NCBI GenBank assembly: GCA_002897775.1
Contig: BDTR01000053.1
Coordinates: 1-64,000 of the forward strand
Source: a bacterium BMS3Bbin08
GTDB taxonomy: Bacteria > Nitrospirota > Thermodesulfovibrionia > UBA6902 > BMS3Bbin08
DNA length: 64,000 bases
Reading direction: 5' to 3'
The position numbers and the translations under genes were made by a program. Position 1 is the first letter of the stretch. The number at the start of each line of letters is the position of its first letter. Positions 20,116 to 63,270 of this stretch are shown in pieces. A model generated the notes under the pieces. That model saw only the letters and a program-made list of their open reading frames with translations. It was not told the origin of the DNA and did no database searches.

Positions 20116-20168
20116 GGGGCTGTAGCTTCCCGACAAGTCGGGACAGGCAGTTGGCCTATGGCTCGTCT

Positions 20169-20193
<25 letters not shown>
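20116..20193 (+). pseudogene. Degenerate 5' copy of tRNA-Ala, interrupted by inserts
   Basis: Matches tRNA-Ala positions 1-12 (20116-20127), then a palindrome TCCCGACAAGTCGGGA plus a few bases, then CAGTTGG (20148-20154), a second insert, then GAGCGCTTGA (20184-20193), ending in the 5' strand of the anticodon stem. The GIY-YIG reading frame continues directly from here. The intact tRNA lies about 250 bp downstream. Confidence 0.75.
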
Positions 20194-20507
<314 letters not shown>

Positions 20508-20519
<12 letters not shown>

Positions 20520-22057
20520 TTTTTGATTTATAGCGGTGACCGCCTCGTTCCGATAAGTCGGAACTCGGACGGAACTATGCAGTTTATATAAATAATCCCA
20601 AGGTTTTTTAAAGTCAACAGACAGCGTGCCCGCCGCAAGGCGGCGGTTCGAGCCGATTTTCTGAAGGAATTCTTTCATTCCTCTATAGTCTTCCTGCAAA
20701 GCGAGATTCTCCGCTGAGTTAGCTTCTAAAATCCAGTTCCTTGTGAGTTCGAGCCAATGATTGCCTTTTCGCTCAAAATCAGATAGTTTCTCCTCAATGT
20801 CCTTTTTCTGCCCCATCAGAGAGTTTTTCTTTTCCTGAAATTCCTTGAGATTCAGGGTTTGATCAAGATAGGCGTCTGTAAGACGGTCTATCCTGGTTTT
20901 AACCCTGCTCAATTCCGCTTTCAGCTTTTGAGCGATAAGGTCTGATGAGTGGCGGGAGTCCTTTTCCCATGTTTCAAGCTTTTTAAGATACCTGTCACGC
21001 CATTTATCAGACAAAGAAACTTTTTGAATGTAATCCTTCACCTGATCAGCAAATGCATTGTCTCGCAAAAAGCCCTGATTGCACTTTTTGGTTTTGCTCC
21101 TCTTGGTGCATCGATAATAGACAAACTCACGCCCGCTTTTTTTGATATGACGCTCTGCTGTTATGGAATAGCCACACTCTCCGCACTGAGCAAAGTTCAA
21201 AAAGAGAAATGGCTTTTTATCAGGCTGTTTTTTGCGGGGCTTGCACTTGTCTTTTAACGTCTGTTGTATCCGATCAAAAAGTTTCTTTGAAATCATTGGC
21301 TTGTGGGTTCCCTCGTGTAGTTCGCCGCGATAAAGAAAATGTCCGTAGTAAAAAGGATTTTTCAAAGTATGTTCAATGGACGATAAGGCGAATTTCTTTC
21401 GGCTTCTTGCTCCAATCAAGCCAAGAGAAAACATTTTGTCGCAGATTTGGGTTAAGGTGTAATTTCCAGTGGCGAAAGCTTCTAAAGCTTTCTTTGTTTT
21501 CCTGAAAGTTTTAGGGTCAGGCTCAATCGTCCGTAATCTCGGCTCATTAAAATATCCTAAGGGTGCTCTTGCTGGAAGTTCACCGCGCCTTAATTTTTGT
21601 CTTATTCCCCTCCAAATATTCTCCCTCAAGTTGTCTGTATAGTATTTTGCCTGTCCGAATGCTACAGAGAGCATGAATTTCCCCTGTGGAGTCGGTTCAA
21701 ACCAGAATGTTGGGAATTTCAGGGATTGGATCTTACCTGTATCAACAAGATAAATGATTCGTCCGCCGTCTACAGAATTGCGAGCAAGTCTGTCAGGATT
21801 CCACGCCAAGATGCCCTGTCCCCCTGTTTTCTTTGTGAAAACAAAGAAGGGGGACCCTGTTCGATTTCAGATAACATCTGATTGAACACAGGGCGGCCCG
21901 GCTCTTTGGCTGTCTTGCTTTCAGTAAATTCTTTTAATACAAGAAGCCCTTCTCTTTTGGCGTATTCCCTTAATTCAGTTAACTGCGCCTCAATAGAGAG
22001 AATCTGCCGTTCTTCTTCCTCAGTGGACTTCCTGCAATAGATGAAATATTTAAACAT
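20508..22057 (-). pseudogene. Large serine recombinase, frameshifted by a palindromic insert
   Basis: The N-terminal part (22057 to about 21860) has the resolvase start YFIYCRKSTEEEERQILSIEAQ with the catalytic Ser. The rest (from about 21815) continues with ILAWNPDRLARNS, the recombinase domain, a Cys-pair zinc ribbon (CGECGY...CTKRSKTKKCNQG) and a coiled coil. The two parts are in different frames because of a 36-bp palindrome with a CCCTG duplication (21814-21859). The last codons (NQKWWS) and stop lie across the tRNA-Ala 3' end, which makes this the likely attachment end. It would have integrated the island at 20.5-40 kb. Confidence 0.85.
21814..21859. mobile_element. 36-bp palindromic insertion with CCCTG target duplication
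   Basis: Bases 21819-21854 form an imperfect palindrome (CCCCC...CTTTGTG...ACAAAG...GGGGG) flanked by CCCTG at 21814-21818 and 21855-21859. Removing insert plus one flank (41 bp) joins EIEQG to ILAWNPDRLA and restores the recombinase frame. Confidence 0.7.
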
Positions 22058-56485: not shown

Positions 56486-57825
56486 TGAAGGATCTTCGCT
56501 ACCTGCTTAATAGACTCTTTAAGGGTAAAGATTATAAGTTTGTCTCCTTTAGAGATCTTATCCAGGCCGGATGGGATTATAACCTCATCACCCCTTATGA
56601 TAGCGCCTATCAGGGATTTTTTAGGCAGTTCTACCGCAACAAGGGTCTTACCTACAAGCACTGAGTCCTCACTGACCTGCGCCTCCATTATCTCGGCCTT
56701 GCCGTCAGCCACTGTTGTAAGTGAAATAATATTACCGGGCCTGACGTATTTCAGGATAGTATCCGCAGTGATCAGACGCGGGCTGAGCACAGCCTCTATA
56801 CCGAGGCTATTGGCAAGCGGCAGGTAATCAGTCCTGTTGACAACGGTTATGACCTTTTTAGCTCCAAGGCTTTTCGCCAGCAAAGAGGCCATTATGTTAA
56901 GCTCCTCATTATTTGATATAGCGGCAAATACATCCATGTCATGAATATTTTCCTCTTCAAGCAGTTTCTGGTCTGAGCCGTCTCCATGCAGTATGACGCT
57001 CTTTTTAAGGGACTTGAGCAGGAACTTGCATCTTTCAGTGTCCCTTTCTATAATTTTTACCCTTATATCCCTTTCTTCCAGCGTCTTTGCCACGTAAAAA
57101 CCGACCCTTCCTCCACCGACTATCATGACATTTTTCACAGGTTCCGCGACACCGCCAACTACCTTACAAACCTGGTCAACATCCTCCACTTTCACAGGCA
57201 CAAAGATTATGTCATCTTTTTTTATTCTGTCATTGCCTGTAGGGATAATAATCTGGTCAGCGCGCTGAATCGCTCCGATCAGGATCTTTGGGCTGGTGCT
57301 GCCGAGATTCTTAAGAGTCTTGCCTATGAACTTTGAATTGGATAGTATCTTGAAGCCAATGACCTTGACCTTCCCGGCCTCGAAATCCTCGCAGTCAACA
57401 GCAAAAGCGACCTCAAGCAGTCTTACAATGGCCTTTGCCAATTCGATCTCAGGACTAATGGCAGGATTAATGCCCAGGCTGTTAAGAAGGGTTTCATTAT
57501 CAATATACTCAAGGTTTCTGATCCTGGCAACGATCCTGGGCACCTGGAACATTGCCTTGGCGACAAGGCAGGCGATCATGTTGGTCTCGTCCATATCCGT
57601 GACAGCCAGGAGTATGTCCGCGTTCTTGGCGCCTGCTTCCTCAAGGATCGATGGAGAACCGCCCTCCCCTTCGATCACAGCAACGTCAAGCTCGCCGGTG
57701 ATCCTCTTCAGCTTTTCCTTGTCCTTATCAACTACCACAACATCAACGTTCTCAGCTGACAGGACCTTTGCTATCTGAAAACCTACCTCTCCTGAGCCTA
57801 CTACAATAACTCGCATCGCCAACAT
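56482..57825 (-). CDS. trkA: Trk system regulatory NAD-binding protein
   Basis: Product of 447 residues, two RCK units: VVGSGEVGFQIAKVLS ... and IVGGGRVGFYVAKTL ..., each followed by a TrkA-C domain. Binds nucleotides and gates TrkH. First gene of the pair on the minus strand. Confidence 0.93.
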   Translation of the reverse strand: MLAMRVIVVGSGEVGFQIAKVLSAENVDVVVVDKDKEKLKRITGELDVAVIEGEGGSPSILEEAGAKNADILLAVTDMDETNMIACLVAKAMFQVPRIVARIRNLEYIDNETLLNSLGINPAISPEIELAKAIVRLLEVAFAVDCEDFEAGKVKVIGFKILSNSKFIGKTLKNLGSTSPKILIGAIQRADQIIIPTGNDRIKKDDIIFVPVKVEDVDQVCKVVGGVAEPVKNVMIVGGGRVGFYVAKTLEERDIRVKIIERDTERCKFLLKSLKKSVILHGDGSDQKLLEEENIHDMDVFAAISNNEELNIMASLLAKSLGAKKVITVVNRTDYLPLANSLGIEAVLSPRLITADTILKYVRPGNIISLTTVADGKAEIMEAQVSEDSVLVGKTLVAVELPKKSLIGAIIRGDEVIIPSGLDKISKGDKLIIFTLKESIKQVAKILQ

Positions 57826-58203
57826 TATATCACAAGGAAATTAAGAAAAAGCAAATCAAGGGGACTTAAAACCGCCCCTTGATTACACCGATCAAAAGAC
57901 ACGATTTCACAGATAGACACTTTTTACATCTGTGTCATCATAATAAATCTGTGTAATCATAAGATAGGGCGGGTCGCCTCTAGCTTATTGATTTAATTAA
58001 GAAATTTCCTTAAGATAAGTTTAGAATCTGGCGAGCCACTAAAGCGATTGCAGATCTCAGATTGTAGATTTTAGATTGAGTATAATAGTGAAAGTTTTAA
58101 TTTTGTTACAATTCACATTTCACAATTCTCGATTCACGATTAGGCCGCTGTTAGTATTTGGTTGTTAGCTATGAGCTATCAGCCATCAGCTATGAACTAT
58201 ATT
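57826..58203. repeat. Intergenic degenerate tandem repeats
   Basis: Contains CAGATTGTAGATTTTAGATTGAG, CAATTCACATTTCACAATTCTCGATTCACGATTA and AGCTATGAGCTATCAGCCATCAGCTATGAACTA. No gene. Confidence 0.65.
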
Positions 58204-58271
58204 GGGCGATTAGCTCCCCGACACTTCGGGGCAGGCACGTGGAGAGCGTCCCGATTTATCGGGAAGGTCGC
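58204..58271 (+). pseudogene. Degenerate tRNA-Val copy with arms replaced by palindromes
   Basis: Matches tRNA-Val positions 1-12 (58204-58215), then palindrome CCCCGACACTTCGGGG (58216-58231), then GGAGAGCG, then palindrome TCCCGATTTATCGGGA (58249-58264) exactly where the anticodon stem-loop should be, then AGGTCGC (58265-58271). The GIY-YIG gene starts 12 bp later. Confidence 0.75.
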
Positions 58272-58283
58272 ATTTATAAACCA

Positions 58284-58550
58284 ATGTATTACATGTATAT
58301 CCTCAAAAGCGATATAGATGGTTCTTTCTATACGGGACAGTGTCAAAATATTCAGGAGAGAGTTCAACGCCATAACCAGGGATATACTAAATCAACAAAA
58401 GCAAGAATACCCTGGCAACTGGTATATTATGAATCGTTTCGAACTCGCCGTGAAGCTATAAAGAGAGAGATACAAATTAAAAGGCAAAAAAGCCATTCAT
58501 ATATAGAAGAACTAATATCTCAAATATCAAATAATGGTACGGGCGATTAG
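58284..58550 (+). CDS. GIY-YIG nuclease (URI type) between tRNA-Val copies
   Basis: 88 residues from ATG 58284: MYYMYILKSDIDGSFYTGQ...RVQRHNQGYTKSTKARIPWQLVYYESFRTRREAIKREIQIKRQ. GIY-YIG core with Arg and the Glu of RREAIKRE; the second motif reads FYTG in place of YIG. The stop TAG (58548-58550) is U8-A9-G10 of the intact tRNA-Val, as in the tRNA-Ala element. Homologous to the protein at 20169-20453 but clearly diverged, so the two events are independent or old. Confidence 0.87.
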   Translation: MYYMYILKSDIDGSFYTGQCQNIQERVQRHNQGYTKSTKARIPWQLVYYESFRTRREAIKREIQIKRQKSHSYIEELISQISNNGTGD

Positions 58551-58615
58551 CTCAGGGGGAGAGCGCTGCCTTCACACGGCAGAGGTCGCTGGTTCGAAAC
58601 CAGCATCGCCTACCA
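58541..58615 (+). tRNA. tRNA-Val (CAC)
   Basis: 75 nt, CCA encoded. Acceptor GGGCGAT/ATCGCCT, D arm GCTC-AGGGGGA-GAGC, anticodon stem CTGCC/GGCAG with loop TTCACAC (anticodon CAC), T arm GCTGG-TTCGAAA-CCAGC. Confidence 0.97.
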
Positions 58616-58629
58616 TTATTTTATAATCA

Positions 58630-58671
58630 CAGAGGTCGTCCCGATGTATCGGGGCATCGCCTACCATTATT
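58630..58671 (+). pseudogene. 3' tRNA-Val fragment with T arm replaced by a palindrome
   Basis: CAGAGGTCG (58630-58638) and CATCGCCTACCATTATT (58655-58671) match the tRNA-Val 3' part and its trailer. Between them the T stem-loop is replaced by TCCCGATGTATCGGGG (58639-58654). Confidence 0.75.
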
Positions 58672-59012
58672 CCCCTGAGGGCAGAGCCGAATGTTAAGAT
58701 ACAAGACCTGACCCCTATTCCTACTTCCTACTAACAGTTCTTTGCACTTTTTGAAGTGTCATTCCGGCTTGACCGGAATCTTTCCCCTTTTAAAAGAAGG
58801 ATTCCCGACATGCGGGAATGACAGAATTATGTAAATTTATTTATGAGACAGTGCACTAGTAGTAGTAGAGTAGTGCTTACTCTTGTATAAATTGCACATC
58901 TTAATTTGACTTGTATTTTGGCCTCCCAAGCATTAACATAGCAATAAATTAGATGGAATATATTAAGACAATATAATTATAGCAATTTATTGTAATATGT
59001 CAAGGAAATAAA
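58672..59012. other. Intergenic region with palindromes
   Basis: Contains ATTCCGGCTTGACCGGAAT (58761-58779) and ATTCCCGACATGCGGGAAT (58801-58819), members of the same palindrome class, then AT-rich DNA. No gene. Confidence 0.6.
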
Positions 59013-59223
59013 ATGCTTTCTGCTTTCTGAAAATATTAAAAGATATCGGAAGAAAAAAGGATTATCTCAGGATAAGTTAGCAAAATTAGCTGACGTAACA
59101 CATACGACACTTATAAAGATTGAATCCGGTGCAAATGATAATCCTACAATTAAAACTTTAAGGAAAATCGCTGATGCATTAGGTGTAAGTTTAGATAAGT
59201 TGGTGGGGAGAGGACGATATTAA
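59013..59223 (+). pseudogene. XRE-family HTH regulator, frameshifted near its start
   Basis: The main frame reads ENIKRYRKKKGLSQDKLAKLADVTHTTLIKIESG followed by TIKTLRKIADALGVSLDKLV, a complete XRE helix-turn-helix ending TAA at 59221. The ATG at 59013 is out of frame because CTTTCTG is duplicated in tandem (59016-59029). With one copy the start would read ATG CTT TCT GAA AAT, in frame. It may be inactive, variable by slippage, or started from a non-ATG codon. It precedes the DUF4062 gene by 19 bp. Confidence 0.75.
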
Positions 59224-59242
59224 AACTTGATACTGAAAGATA

Positions 59243-60694
59243 TTGATTATGAAGTATAAAATATTCGTAAGCGGAGTTCAGAAGGAACTTAAGAAAGAAC
59301 GGCGTACTGTTAAGGAACTTGTTTCAGGCAATGTCCTTTTGAATGAGCATTTTGATATATTCCTGTTTGAAGATATGCCCGCTCAAAGTAAGTCTGCTAA
59401 AAAATTGTATCTGGATAAAGTCGGCAACAGTTCTATTTATATGGGTATATTAGGGGATCAGTACGGAACTACTGTTACGAACAATCTCTCAGCGACAGAA
59501 GCTGAATTTTGGGAGGCAAAGAAAAAGGACAAAGAGATTTATGTCTATATAAAAGGCCGCAATGATTCCAGGAGGGACAAAAGAGTTCAGAAATTAATAG
59601 CGGAAATCAAGAACCCTGAAACCGGATACAGTTATAAAAGATTTCAGTCCACTGATGAACTGAAAAATAACATCTATGAAAGTCTTATAGATTTATTACG
59701 GGAGAAAGGCATTGTCGGAAAAACAGCTTTTGACATGGCCGTATGTGAAGATGCGTCTTCAAACGATATTGACAAAGAAAAAGTGAAATGGTTTTTACGC
59801 ATGGCAAAAGACAAACGGAATTATCCGCTCTCAGAAAAAACACCGGTTAAAGACATATTTGCGCATCTGAACCTGATGCACAAAGGGGCTTTAACAAACG
59901 CTGCCGTTCTTTTGTTTGGCAAAAATCCTCAGAAGTACCATTTACAGGCAGAAATCAAATGTCTACAATTTCACGGGACAGAAGTCAAAAAGCCTTTTGC
60001 GTCATACCATATTTACAAAGGCAATCTTTTTGAGCAGATTGACCGGGCTGTTGCGTTTGTGTTAAGCAGCATACGAATGCCGGTTATTCAACAGGCAGAG
60101 ACAGCGCAGGTCAAACGTCCGCTTGAAATACCTGTTTTTGCAGTTCAGGAAGCGATTGTTAACGCCGCTGCTCATAGAGATTATAATCCAAGTGCGGCGG
60201 TGCAAGTAATGGTATTTATAGATCGGGTGGAAGTATGGAATCCGGGAAGATTGCCGTCACAGCTTAGTATAGACGACCTTAAGAAGCCTCATACCTCGTA
60301 TCCCGGTAATCCATTATTAGCGGAAGTATTATATCTGTCTGATTATATTCAAAAGGCAGGGTCTGGAACGATAGAGATGATCAAGCAATGTAAACAGAAA
60401 GGATTGCCTGAACCGAATTTTGTATCATTACGGGGAATGGAATTCAGAACAATACTGGCGCGGGATATTTTGACGGAGGATATGCTGATTAATCTTGATC
60501 TGAATGAACGACAAATGCAAGCAGTTAAGTATGTAAAAGAAAAAGGGAAAATTACGAATAAAGAGTATCAGGAACTGACAGGTGTTTCAAAACCAACTGC
60601 CACGCGCGATCTTCAAGAACTTATTAAGAAGTCAATTTTGCAAAAATCCGGTATTACAGGAAAAGGGACCTCATATAAAGTAAAGGGCTCATAA
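59243..60694 (+). CDS. DUF4062 - HATPase_c_4 - wHTH protein
   Basis: Product of 483 residues. The N-terminal DUF4062 domain (KIFVSGVQKELKKERR...YMGILGDQYG...SATEAEFWEA, about 1-130) is TIR-like in fold. A middle region with a GHKL-type ATP-binding domain follows (PVFAVQEAIVNAAAHRDY, VEVWNPGRLPSQL, about 285-400), then a C-terminal winged helix (ITNKEYQELTGVSKPTATRDLQEL). Related to AlbA_2/Schlafen-like RecG-related regulators, with DUF4062 at the front. Likely stress or defence related; activity unknown. Confidence 0.8.
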   Translation: MIMKYKIFVSGVQKELKKERRTVKELVSGNVLLNEHFDIFLFEDMPAQSKSAKKLYLDKVGNSSIYMGILGDQYGTTVTNNLSATEAEFWEAKKKDKEIYVYIKGRNDSRRDKRVQKLIAEIKNPETGYSYKRFQSTDELKNNIYESLIDLLREKGIVGKTAFDMAVCEDASSNDIDKEKVKWFLRMAKDKRNYPLSEKTPVKDIFAHLNLMHKGALTNAAVLLFGKNPQKYHLQAEIKCLQFHGTEVKKPFASYHIYKGNLFEQIDRAVAFVLSSIRMPVIQQAETAQVKRPLEIPVFAVQEAIVNAAAHRDYNPSAAVQVMVFIDRVEVWNPGRLPSQLSIDDLKKPHTSYPGNPLLAEVLYLSDYIQKAGSGTIEMIKQCKQKGLPEPNFVSLRGMEFRTILARDILTEDMLINLDLNERQMQAVKYVKEKGKITNKEYQELTGVSKPTATRDLQELIKKSILQKSGITGKGTSYKVKGS

Positions 60695-60745
60695 ACGGCT
60701 CAAAGGAATCATGAAGGGCTCATAAACGGCTTAAGGGAAACAAGA
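60695..60745 (+). repeat. Short direct repeat after the DUF4062 gene
   Basis: GGGCTCATAAACGGCT is present twice, the first copy spanning the stop codon (from about 60687) and the second from about 60716. Minor tandem duplication. Confidence 0.6.
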
Positions 60746-60855
60746 GAAAATCTTGTGAAACTCTCCCTTTATCCTTTTGAACAGCGAGCGACAGTTTCTA
60801 ATAAACAAAAGACTTGCAGAGCGATTTGTTGTAGTAAATCATCTAAACTTACCTC

Positions 60856-63270
60856 ATGTCAAAAAACAAAAATAAGATATTAACGACTATTACCCTTCTG
60901 GAATCACGATTGCAGGAAATAGACATTGAGCGGGGGAATATTGTTAATGAAATTAATAAACTTAAAAAAACACTCTCAAAAATTGTGGATTCACAACCAG
61001 GACAGTCCACTCACCTTCCTTCATTAACCGCCCGACCGTTGAGCAACGAAAAGATAGCTTTGTTTCGTTCCCTGTTCCGCGGTCGAGAAGATGTTTTTCC
61101 AAAGCTTTGGGTCAGTAAAAAGACCAGGAAAACAGGATATAGTCCGGTTTGTGAAAATGAGTGGATAAGAGGGGTCTGCAATAAGGGATCAATAAAATGT
61201 GGAGAATGTGAAAATCGCAAGTTTTCTCTATTGACTAATGAGATTATTCGCAAGCACCTGGATGGGGAAGTGATCATTGGTGTTTATCCTTTGATGAAGG
61301 ATGAGACCTGCTGGTTTCTTGCTGTGGATTTTGACGGACAAAGCTGGCAAGATGATGTCTTGGCATTCTTTTCCATATGCAAGAAAAATAATGTGCCGGT
61401 TACTCTTGAAAGGTCAAGATCGGGAAATGGAGGACATGTCTGGATATTTTTTTCTGAACCTGTTAGCGCTGCGCTTGCCAGACAAATGGGAAGCTATCTG
61501 ATTACTCTAACGATGTCTCATAGGCATGAACTGGATATGAAGAGTTATGATCGTTTATTTCCAAACCAGGATACTTTACCCAGAGGTGGATTCGGAAGCC
61601 TTATTGCCCTCCCTCTCCAGAAGGAACCTATGAAAAAAGGGAACAGTGTGTTCATTAATGAAAGCTTTATTCCATATATAGACCAGTGGGATTATCTGTC
61701 AAAAAATAAGAAGCTGAGTCTCAATGAAGTCCAGACTATTGTTACTGGTGCAGAAAGATCAAGAAATGTTATGGGAGCATTTCTGAGAGAACCCGACGAA
61801 GAAGTCAGACCTTGGGAAAAACCCACATCAAACAGGAAATCATTTCAGAAACTTACCTGTAAACTTCCATCGGAAATTCACACGGTGCTTGCGAATAGAA
61901 TTTATATAAATAAATCTGGATTGCCGTCTCAACTTATCAATCAAATTAAAAGACTGGCTGCTTTTCAAAACCCTGAATTTTATAAGAAGCAGAGAATGCG
62001 GCTATCAACTGCTCTGACGCCGAGAATTATATTTTGCGCTGAAGATATTCAAGGCTATATTACTATCCCCCGCGGATGCCTGGAAGACCTTGGAGAACTT
62101 TTGACACTGAATAAAATAGCGTTTAATTTAAAGGATAAACGATTTAACGGAAACGATATCAATTATAATTTTTATGGAAAACTCACAGAAGCACAGGAAA
62201 AGGCTTGCGATGAATTACTCAAACAGGAGTTTGGTATTTTTGTAGCACCGCCTGGCGTTGGCAAGACTGTTTTAGGAATCAATCTGCTTGTGTCAAGAAA
62301 AGTAAATACACTTATACTTGTTCACCGTAAGCCGCTACTTGAACAATGGCGTACACAAATAGCTTCATTTTTGCAATTGCCAATAAAAGAAATAGGGCAA
62401 ATTGGCGGCGGTAGAGATAAATCAACCAACATAATTGATGTTGCAATGATTCAAAGCCTTGACAAAAAAGAAGGGGTAGACAGAAGGATCAAAAATTACG
62501 GGTATATTATCGTAGATGAATGTCATCATGTTTCAGCTTTTTCCTTTGAAAAGGTTATGATGGAGGCAAATGCTAAATACATAACTGGTTTAACTTCTAC
62601 ACCATACAGACGCGATGGTCATCATCCAATCATCGCCATGCAGTGCGGACCGATACGGTATAAAATAATACGCAACAAATATGTTGACAGCAAACCTTTA
62701 CAACACAAACTCATTAAGAGAATCACCGCCTTTTCCTGTTCATTCAATGATAAGGATAATATTCATACTCTGTGGCCACAGTTAATTGTAAATGAAGAGC
62801 GAAACCAAATGATATTCAATGACATTCTTAAGGCTCTCGAAGATAAGCAATCACCGATAGTCTTAACGGAAAGAAAAGAGCATCTGGAGATACTAAAACA
62901 AAAACTTGAAAATTTTGTTAAGAATATCATTATCCTGCATGGCGGAATGAGGGCGAAAAAAAGGAAAGAAATGATAGCAATGTTGACTGATATTCATGAT
63001 TCGGAAGAACGATTGATTTTAGCTACTGGTCAATATATTGGCGAAGGATTTGATGACCCAAGACTTGATACGCTCTTTCTGACAATGCCGTTTTCCTTCA
63101 GTGGGAAAATGATTCAATATGCAGGGAGACTCCATCGCCTTCATCCAGGTAAAACTGAGACAAAAATATATGATTACGTAGATGAAAGTATCCCTGTTCT
63201 GTCAAGAATGTATAAACGAAGACTTAAAGCGTATAGAGCATTGGGGTATGAGGAAAACATTCCGCAATAA
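60856..63270 (+). CDS. TOTE-type archaeo-eukaryotic primase fused to SF2 helicase
   Basis: Product of 804 residues. A short N-terminal coiled coil is followed by an AEP primase domain with LAVDFDGQSW (metal DxD-like), SRSGNGGHVWIFF and DRLFPNQD...GGFGSLIALPLQ (about 65-290), the pattern of TOTE conflict-system primases. The C-terminal SF2 helicase has VAPPGVGKTVLG, VDECHHVSAFSF, LTSTPYRRDG and YAGRLHRLHPG. TOTE modules usually carry an added nuclease (Vsr, URI or others); none is fused here, though the wider window has separate GIY-YIG genes. Inferred role: mobile-element or phage conflict. Confidence 0.85.
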   Translation: MSKNKNKILTTITLLESRLQEIDIERGNIVNEINKLKKTLSKIVDSQPGQSTHLPSLTARPLSNEKIALFRSLFRGREDVFPKLWVSKKTRKTGYSPVCENEWIRGVCNKGSIKCGECENRKFSLLTNEIIRKHLDGEVIIGVYPLMKDETCWFLAVDFDGQSWQDDVLAFFSICKKNNVPVTLERSRSGNGGHVWIFFSEPVSAALARQMGSYLITLTMSHRHELDMKSYDRLFPNQDTLPRGGFGSLIALPLQKEPMKKGNSVFINESFIPYIDQWDYLSKNKKLSLNEVQTIVTGAERSRNVMGAFLREPDEEVRPWEKPTSNRKSFQKLTCKLPSEIHTVLANRIYINKSGLPSQLINQIKRLAAFQNPEFYKKQRMRLSTALTPRIIFCAEDIQGYITIPRGCLEDLGELLTLNKIAFNLKDKRFNGNDINYNFYGKLTEAQEKACDELLKQEFGIFVAPPGVGKTVLGINLLVSRKVNTLILVHRKPLLEQWRTQIASFLQLPIKEIGQIGGGRDKSTNIIDVAMIQSLDKKEGVDRRIKNYGYIIVDECHHVSAFSFEKVMMEANAKYITGLTSTPYRRDGHHPIIAMQCGPIRYKIIRNKYVDSKPLQHKLIKRITAFSCSFNDKDNIHTLWPQLIVNEERNQMIFNDILKALEDKQSPIVLTERKEHLEILKQKLENFVKNIIILHGGMRAKKRKEMIAMLTDIHDSEERLILATGQYIGEGFDDPRLDTLFLTMPFSFSGKMIQYAGRLHRLHPGKTETKIYDYVDESIPVLSRMYKRRLKAYRALGYEENIPQ

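Follow-up and report, generated by a model that had tools for sequence, protein, structure and literature searches.

Insertion into a tRNA gene with restoration of the displaced half is seen in the tRNA-gene integrative elements, and the anticodon region of bacterial tRNAs is invaded by group I introns that carry endonuclease genes. A mobile element that duplicates part of its host gene resides in the mitochondrial atp6 gene of Allomyces. In the mitochondria of Tremella, an endonuclease element that has entered a gene comes with a part-copy, which replaces the displaced part (PMC7315562). Phages T4 and T6 encode SegB, a free-standing GIY-YIG homing endonuclease located beside tRNAs that makes cuts within tRNA genes and drives tRNA-segment amplification (PMC13096335). 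So could any of these systems help understanding the small nuclease genes that adjoin tRNA genes in the DNA analysed here?

The window, that is, the whole stretch of 64,000 nucleotides from the Nitrospirota bacterium BMS3Bbin08 that was analysed, contains two tRNA genes, tRNA-Ala(GGC) and tRNA-Val(CAC), each with a small GIY-YIG ORF on its 5' side (ARAGORN, ORF and Pfam analysis). The Val locus (58204-58671) reads, in order, 5'-partial tRNA-Val copy, GIY-YIG ORF, intact tRNA-Val(CAC) and 3'-partial tRNA-Val copy. The degenerate left copy (58204-58271, plus strand), delineated from the sequence and picked up as a left copy in two further analyses, covers tRNA positions 1-13, 18-25 and 43-49 and is composed of GGGCGATTAGCTC, a palindrome, GGAGAGCG, TCCCGATTTATCGGGA at the place of the anticodon arm and AGGTCGC. 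The first palindrome, CCCGACACTTCGGGG (58217-58231, unstranded, from the sequence), occupies the D-loop position, the same place at which different palindromes are found in L086 and L188; the second, which substitutes for the anticodon arm (58249-58264, unstranded), conforms to the pattern GAGCGTCCCG-N3-9-CGGGAAGGTC. The ORF (58284-58550, plus strand) encodes a minimal GIY-YIG nuclease of about 88 aa (PF01541, E 7.6e-14) and runs into the intact tRNA-Val (58541-58615, plus strand; ARAGORN; Rfam 64.4 bits), which is followed by the degenerate right copy (58630-58671, plus strand, from the sequence), likewise picked up in the two further analyses and consisting of CAGAGGTCG, TCCCGATGTATCGGGG at the place of the T arm and CATCGCCTACCATTATT. 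In both partial copies, a perfect palindrome substitutes for one tRNA arm. The ORF has no stop codon of its own; the TAG is supplied by positions 8-10 of the tRNA, with an overlap of ten bases, and the same borrowed stop is found at the Ala locus and at four other upstream-type loci. The GIY-YIG ORF is the sole ORF between the tRNA copies, and the Val unit lacks an integrase or recombinase gene. An Rfam intron search yielded no intron model match in 57800-59100 even at E 5, and the nuclease gene lies outside any intron or intein; a group I intron reading of the unit is ruled out by the absence of an intron core around the ORF. A preliminary description of this DNA had placed a GIY-YIG gene between a degenerate and an intact tRNA-Val, and the ARAGORN tRNA, the Pfam ORF and the degenerate left copy bear this out; it included neither the 3'-partial copy nor the stop codon inside the tRNA.

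The Ala unit (20118-20519), for which the same architecture had been claimed, indeed matches the Val unit: a 5'-partial copy of tRNA-Ala whose D-loop holds palindromes (20118-20194, plus strand, from the sequence) precedes the GIY-YIG ORF (20190-20453, plus strand; ORF and Pfam analysis), which takes its stop from the TAG at positions 8-10 of the intact tRNA-Ala(GGC) (20444-20519, plus strand; ARAGORN). On the minus strand, a broken serine recombinase gene (20508-22057) ends within the 3' end of this tRNA-Ala.

With a PF01541 score of 52.2 bits against a curated cut-off of 22.6, the Val-unit protein qualifies as a member of the GIY-YIG superfamily, and it is catalytically complete, with the motif residues GIY, YIG, Arg, His and Glu all retained. 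Comparison of the Val ORF with relatives gives dN/dS values of 0.17-0.27, and the measurable, unsaturated pairs taken together give 0.14-0.27, demonstrating, at the level of sequence, that the ORF is under purifying selection. The closest solved structures are those of the UPF0213 proteins PDB 1zg2 (E 3e-8) and 1ywl (E 1.5e-6); small GIY-YIG proteins of the UPF0213/URI type are sequence relatives that likewise consist of a single catalytic domain, but 1zg2 and 1ywl are stand-alone hypothetical proteins. No separate DNA-binding domain is visible in the protein of about 88 aa, which comprises the catalytic domain alone. To our knowledge, homing enzymes possess a DNA-binding domain distinct from the catalytic one, so the absence of a visible domain of this kind sets the nuclease apart from SegB and I-TevI-like enzymes. 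That the nuclease cleaves DNA and is mobile is inferred rather than demonstrated.

How, then, does the cassette compare with the described systems? It shares with SegB a GIY-YIG nuclease adjoining tRNA genes of many isotypes, and it satisfies the criteria for an element of this kind in that its gene lies outside an intron or intein and adjoins the presumed target tRNA genes, cleavage being inferred. However, SegB is phage-borne and larger, whereas the cassette resides in a cellular host, encodes the catalytic domain alone, and appears to have its tRNA split and restored. Copies of half of the same tRNA and palindromic arm swaps, both present in the cassette, are not described for SegB in the sections of its account that were considered (PMC13096335). 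Because the test for a GIY-YIG domain is met and those for an intron, an integrase and a DNA-binding domain fail, a SegB-like mode of action appears likely, yet we do not class the nuclease as a member of the SegB family. The fungal mitochondrial elements are similar in that an endonuclease element brings along a copy of part of the invaded gene, but they inhabit protein genes of organelles, and those of Tremella are predicted introns, whereas the cassette occupies bacterial chromosomal tRNA genes without an intron. Unlike the tRNA-gene integrative elements, the cassette has no integrase, forms a unit of only about 0.35 kb, leaves a scar with the anticodon arm replaced and uses either side of the tRNA. 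In contrast to the group I introns of bacterial tRNAs, the cassette has no intron; one was found only at tRNA-Asn (L008/L055), and none at the Val unit or the other scanned GIY-YIG loci.

In the home genome, there are nine PF01541 matches, seven of which adjoin a tRNA gene or, in one case, a tRNA fragment (Gln, Ala twice, Ser, Leu, Val and Asn); the other two are a fragment of 53 codons (L009) and a long ORF (650 aa) that probably encodes UvrC. Six of these seven are 0-145 bp from a tRNA detected by ARAGORN (Gln-CTG, Ala-GGC twice, Leu-GAG, Val-CAC and Asn-GTT), and the seventh, that of Ser, sits at the end of a contig with a copy of the same tRNA-Ser 5' fragment on either side. An eighth tRNA, tRNA-Ser(CGA), carries a C-terminal GIY-YIG remnant fused to its front. 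The preliminary description had held chance to be an unlikely cause of the recurrence, and this judgement is now supported in quantitative terms: six of the eight small GIY-YIG ORFs in the genome have an ARAGORN tRNA no farther than 150 bp away, compared with an expectation of 0.6% for each (P ~2e-12). Partial tRNA copies accompany four of the seven tRNAs with a nuclease and only two of the 38 without one (Fisher P 0.003); this within-genome test replaces a comparison of mixed loci in which the nuclease-free set, containing tRNA clusters and loci picked for the scar pattern, was a poor control. At the contig end mentioned above (L003; G000 contig C30, 192.5-193.0 kb), the unit formed by the tRNA-Ser 5' fragment with its palindrome and the GIY-YIG gene starts an exact repeat, as would result from a tandem array or from a loop in the assembly. 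Several further contigs terminate at tRNA repeats.

The association extends far beyond a single genome. The order to which the bacterium belongs, sampled with 41 genomes, has 81 GIY-YIG matches; for 25 of them a tRNA is at most 400 bp away, and these 25 are all on the tRNA strand. A scan with a profile of the Val type, for which the sample consisted of named genomes and one viral contig, yielded 59 loci, of which 27 have a tRNA no more than 400 bp away, here too without exception on the strand of the nuclease gene; the tRNA-linked loci include representatives of Patescibacteria lineages, Bacteroidota and Ignavibacteria as well as a Dehalococcoidia bacterium and a TM6 bacterium. When the relatives and the named genomes are taken together, all 62 tRNAs with a GIY-YIG gene within 500 bp, from several phyla, have that gene on their own strand, although not all of these pairs are independent because a single nuclease gene can lie near more than one tRNA of a cluster. 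The gene is upstream of the tRNA in 25 cases, mostly within 44 bp, and downstream in 37. The suggestion that the two units represent a class of elements recognizing tRNA genes in general can accordingly be upheld insofar as many tRNAs are involved (seven and a remnant in the home genome, about 25 loci in the 41 genomes and 27 of 59 in the named-genome scan); biochemical recognition remains unproven, and there is no obvious DNA-binding domain. Among 20 named loci without a tRNA, relatives of the nuclease are found near two tmRNAs (L169 and L164) and one 23S rRNA (L141), whereas none of the 20 non-tRNA loci of the order shows such a link, so that an association with other structured RNAs is suggestive only. 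The case for a phage origin is weak, the only pointers being a distant viral contig and four phage records that are likewise distant.

In the nuclease tree, the tRNA-linked proteins make up almost a single clade, 23 of whose 25 members are tRNA-linked (3 label changes compared to 21 in shuffled data). Val-CAC proteins from a different family join the Val protein of the window (support 98/93), and an Ala-GGC protein from a different genus joins the Ala protein (support 100/99), whereas the two window proteins are only about 46% identical to each other; Ala proteins located downstream of the tRNA form a separate clade (support 99/95). Since the Val and Ala copies group with the same-tRNA copies of other genomes and not with each other, a local segmental duplication of the two units is ruled out. 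The preliminary description would have been refuted if these were the only two cases and both arose by one segmental duplication including the tRNA; with seven cases, a remnant and this pattern of grouping, the refutation fails. The comparison of the nuclease tree with tRNA identity that it had proposed shows that identity is clustered: 31 changes are needed where shuffling gives 38.8, and not one of 200 shuffles came as low. Because identity is clustered yet far from fixed, either switching is frequent or the short alignment of about 80 aa is misleading. Viewed locally, individual nuclease lineages appear to keep to one tRNA instead of accepting any.

The partial copies follow a regular pattern. 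Left copies retain the 5' end of the tRNA and the D arm (mean coverage 0.81 for the 5' acceptor strand, 0.87 for the D arm and 0.34 for the anticodon arm), and right copies retain the variable region, the T arm and the 3' end (0.85, 0.75 and 0.90 for the 3' acceptor strand, with 0.37 for the anticodon arm), the anticodon arm being poorly represented in both. In several phyla, the replacement for the arm is a hairpin of like size, mostly TCCCG-N-CGGGA, or GTCG-N3-CGAC in the downstream type at Ala. The swapped-arm pattern defined at the Val unit matches 12 times in 47 genomes, always at tRNAs, whereas the reversed control pattern gives 0 matches, ruling out a chance alignment artefact as the source of the partial copies. 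Eight of the 11 non-redundant pattern loci lack a nuclease gene, which implies that the scars are more widespread than the nuclease. At one of these eight, L195, the pattern belongs to a complete tRNA-Val with a TCCCG/CGGGA anticodon stem. This apparently functional tRNA-Val(CAC) with a scar-type stem and no nuclease nearby (L195/L200, G002 contig C77) may be a converted, possibly cut-resistant allele. A pattern match in the wider phylum (L253) was discarded as a chance match in apparent coding DNA. At many tRNA-linked loci, no more than a single partial copy, and sometimes not even one, can be detected; at the other extreme, L127 and L136 contain repeated units, a further nuclease gene beginning after the right partial copy, and L256 has three scars in succession. 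At the tRNA-Ala loci L235 and L231, the left and right copies share the same palindrome, and at a third tRNA-Ala locus, L084, the loop is exactly inverted. An identical 17-mer, TCCCGATTGCATCGGGA, occupies the anticodon-arm position of the tRNA-Ala scars at L073, L254, L255 and L256, in three families of the phylum; its 7-base loop includes TGC, an alanine anticodon, possibly by chance.

Gain and loss can be followed at a single orthologous tRNA, owing to the methyltransferase gene upstream of the window tRNA-Ala, a gene that accompanies tRNA-Ala(GGC) in numerous genomes of the order. At this locus, L217, L226, L227, L244 and L249 are empty, with neither a copy nor a nuclease; L235, L242 and L243 are filled, with the nuclease downstream of tRNA-Ala, and so is the window, with the nuclease upstream; L231 is decayed, its nuclease being broken and enclosed by a left and a right partial copy; L213 and L216 contain a short right scar alone. 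The filled L242 and the empty L244 belong to one genus and agree in sequence up to the tRNA, after which L242 continues with the nuclease and then GAGAGCG-GTCGTATCGAC-AGGTCG...CCA. On sequence grounds this, like the split copies, is consistent with an insertion at the anticodon arm with the tRNA restored, but the downstream flanks are too diverged to prove this or to fix the right boundary.

The hypothesis that we favour, and to which we assign a probability of roughly 0.6, is that of a selfish, free-standing, homing-type cassette living in tRNA genes, for which SegB is the closest precedent and the Tremella elements offer a parallel to the carried part-copy of a broken gene. The sequences establish the architecture, the recurrence, the strand rule, the purifying selection and the filled, empty, remnant and scar states at one orthologous tRNA, whereas cleavage, homing, promoter sharing and the origin of the palindromes are inferred. 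The minimal endonuclease would break a tRNA gene at the anticodon arm or close to it, and homologous repair off a cassette-bearing copy, guided by the tRNA halves, would import the nuclease together with the missing tRNA half; both steps are conjectural. The outcome would be one complete tRNA and one or two partial copies, these being directly observed, with the displaced half of the target staying behind as a 5'-partial copy at the left or a 3'-partial copy at the right, its scar anticodon arm turned into a palindrome. The homology of the tRNA would dictate the orientation of the cassette, which is indeed fixed. In the upstream form, the nuclease would probably be expressed from the native tRNA promoter, an inference drawn from the lack of room for a promoter between ORF and tRNA, and after decay of the nuclease gene, the tRNA scars would persist. 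Several considerations go against this scenario: the bare catalytic domain, whereas known homing enzymes have a separate DNA-binding domain; the intact tRNA beside the nuclease, which should be a target as well; the numerous tRNA-linked loci with at most one partial copy; the diverged downstream flanks of L242 and L244, which leave the right boundary unfixed; and the palindrome-armed partial copies without a nuclease at 8 of the 11 pattern loci.

These nuclease-free copies imply that tandem tRNA duplication alone could precede the nuclease. Could ordinary recombination have duplicated the tRNA genes first, the spare copies then decaying and gathering palindromes while a small nuclease gene was tolerated and merely carried along? 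Palindrome-armed partial copies without a nuclease at L185, L187, L188, L190-L192 and L194, a 40-bp half copy of tRNA-Arg separated from the intact gene by hicAB and a 3'-partial copy of tRNA-Met without a nuclease are all compatible with such a history. We nevertheless consider it unlikely, if worth keeping in mind, given that partial copies in the home genome track the nuclease (4/7 against 2/38), that the strand rule without exceptions, the tRNA-linked nuclease clade and the series of remnants and scars better fit lost cassettes, and that the nuclease-free scars of L213 and L216 lie at a locus that is filled in relatives.

The replacement or invasion of tRNA arms by palindromes in several phyla, along with the palindromes shared or inverted between left and right copies (L235, L231, L084), might instead indicate that the nuclease acts on hairpin DNA, with tRNA genes as hairpin donors and the TCCCG-N-CGGGA hairpins mobile in the manner of REP hairpins and RAYT transposases; this is quite improbable, inasmuch as TCCCG-N3-9-CGGGA exceeds the control only about 2.4-fold genome-wide (80 vs 33) and no test links palindrome copy number to the nuclease. 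Even less can be said for a domesticated host gene that helps maintaining or expressing tRNA genes: purifying selection and the shared orientation with the tRNAs would be expected of it, but the patchy gain and loss at one orthologous tRNA, the decayed copies and the different tRNAs used in different species would not. Hardly credible is a toxin-antitoxin system at the RNA level, in which the nuclease would cleave tRNA and an extra tRNA or arm-swapped fragment would protect the cell; although the anticodon arm is the part most consistently absent from the partial copies, GIY-YIG enzymes are known as DNases, the left copies are half tRNAs unable to fold as tRNA, and no conserved decoy structure has been demonstrated.

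In its most general form, the homing-cassette hypothesis implies a widespread, undescribed class of cellular selfish element. Its one minimal nuclease gene would split tRNA genes of several bacterial phyla at the anticodon arm, and the element would make good the loss with a copy of the missing half that it carries, borrow the promoter and the stop of the tRNA and leave palindrome-armed scars as a record of invasions, a tentative proposition to which we would give slightly less than even odds. We found no account of a tRNA-splitting nuclease cassette in the open literature, a search that left out most subscription papers. If the proposition is true, the cassette, with its single ORF of less than 100 codons, would be among the smallest selfish elements known, persisting in essential genes without splicing, by rebuilding what gets broken. 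It would further account for many odd tRNA fragments, changes in tRNA copy number and assembly breaks at tRNAs, as well as for nuclease ORFs annotated as running into tRNA genes. The testable question that it raises is how a bare GIY-YIG domain locates tRNA genes.

Several additional features of these loci deserve mention. Directly downstream of the Val unit, the region 59020-63270 encodes a helix-turn-helix-like small ORF, a DUF4062/HATPase_c_4 protein and a TOTE-type primase-helicase, possibly a defence island next to tRNA-Val. The same split-tRNA layout, but with other cargo, occurs at L039 (around 108.0-108.7 kb of G000 contig C45): the intact tRNA-Arg(CCT) is preceded, at a distance of 628 bp, by an exact 40-bp copy of its 5' half, and the DNA in between holds a pair of HicA/HicB-like genes, an identification made by eye. 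At L055 (3651-4356; G000 contig C42, about 83.7-84.4 kb), the anticodon loop of tRNA-Asn(GTT) contains a group I intron (Rfam 79.5 bits) that includes an ORF of the HNH type and, in one of its hairpins, a palindrome, and a small GIY-YIG gene lies 145 bp downstream; in a relative (L094), the intron-bearing tRNA-Asn is flanked by two GIY-YIG genes.
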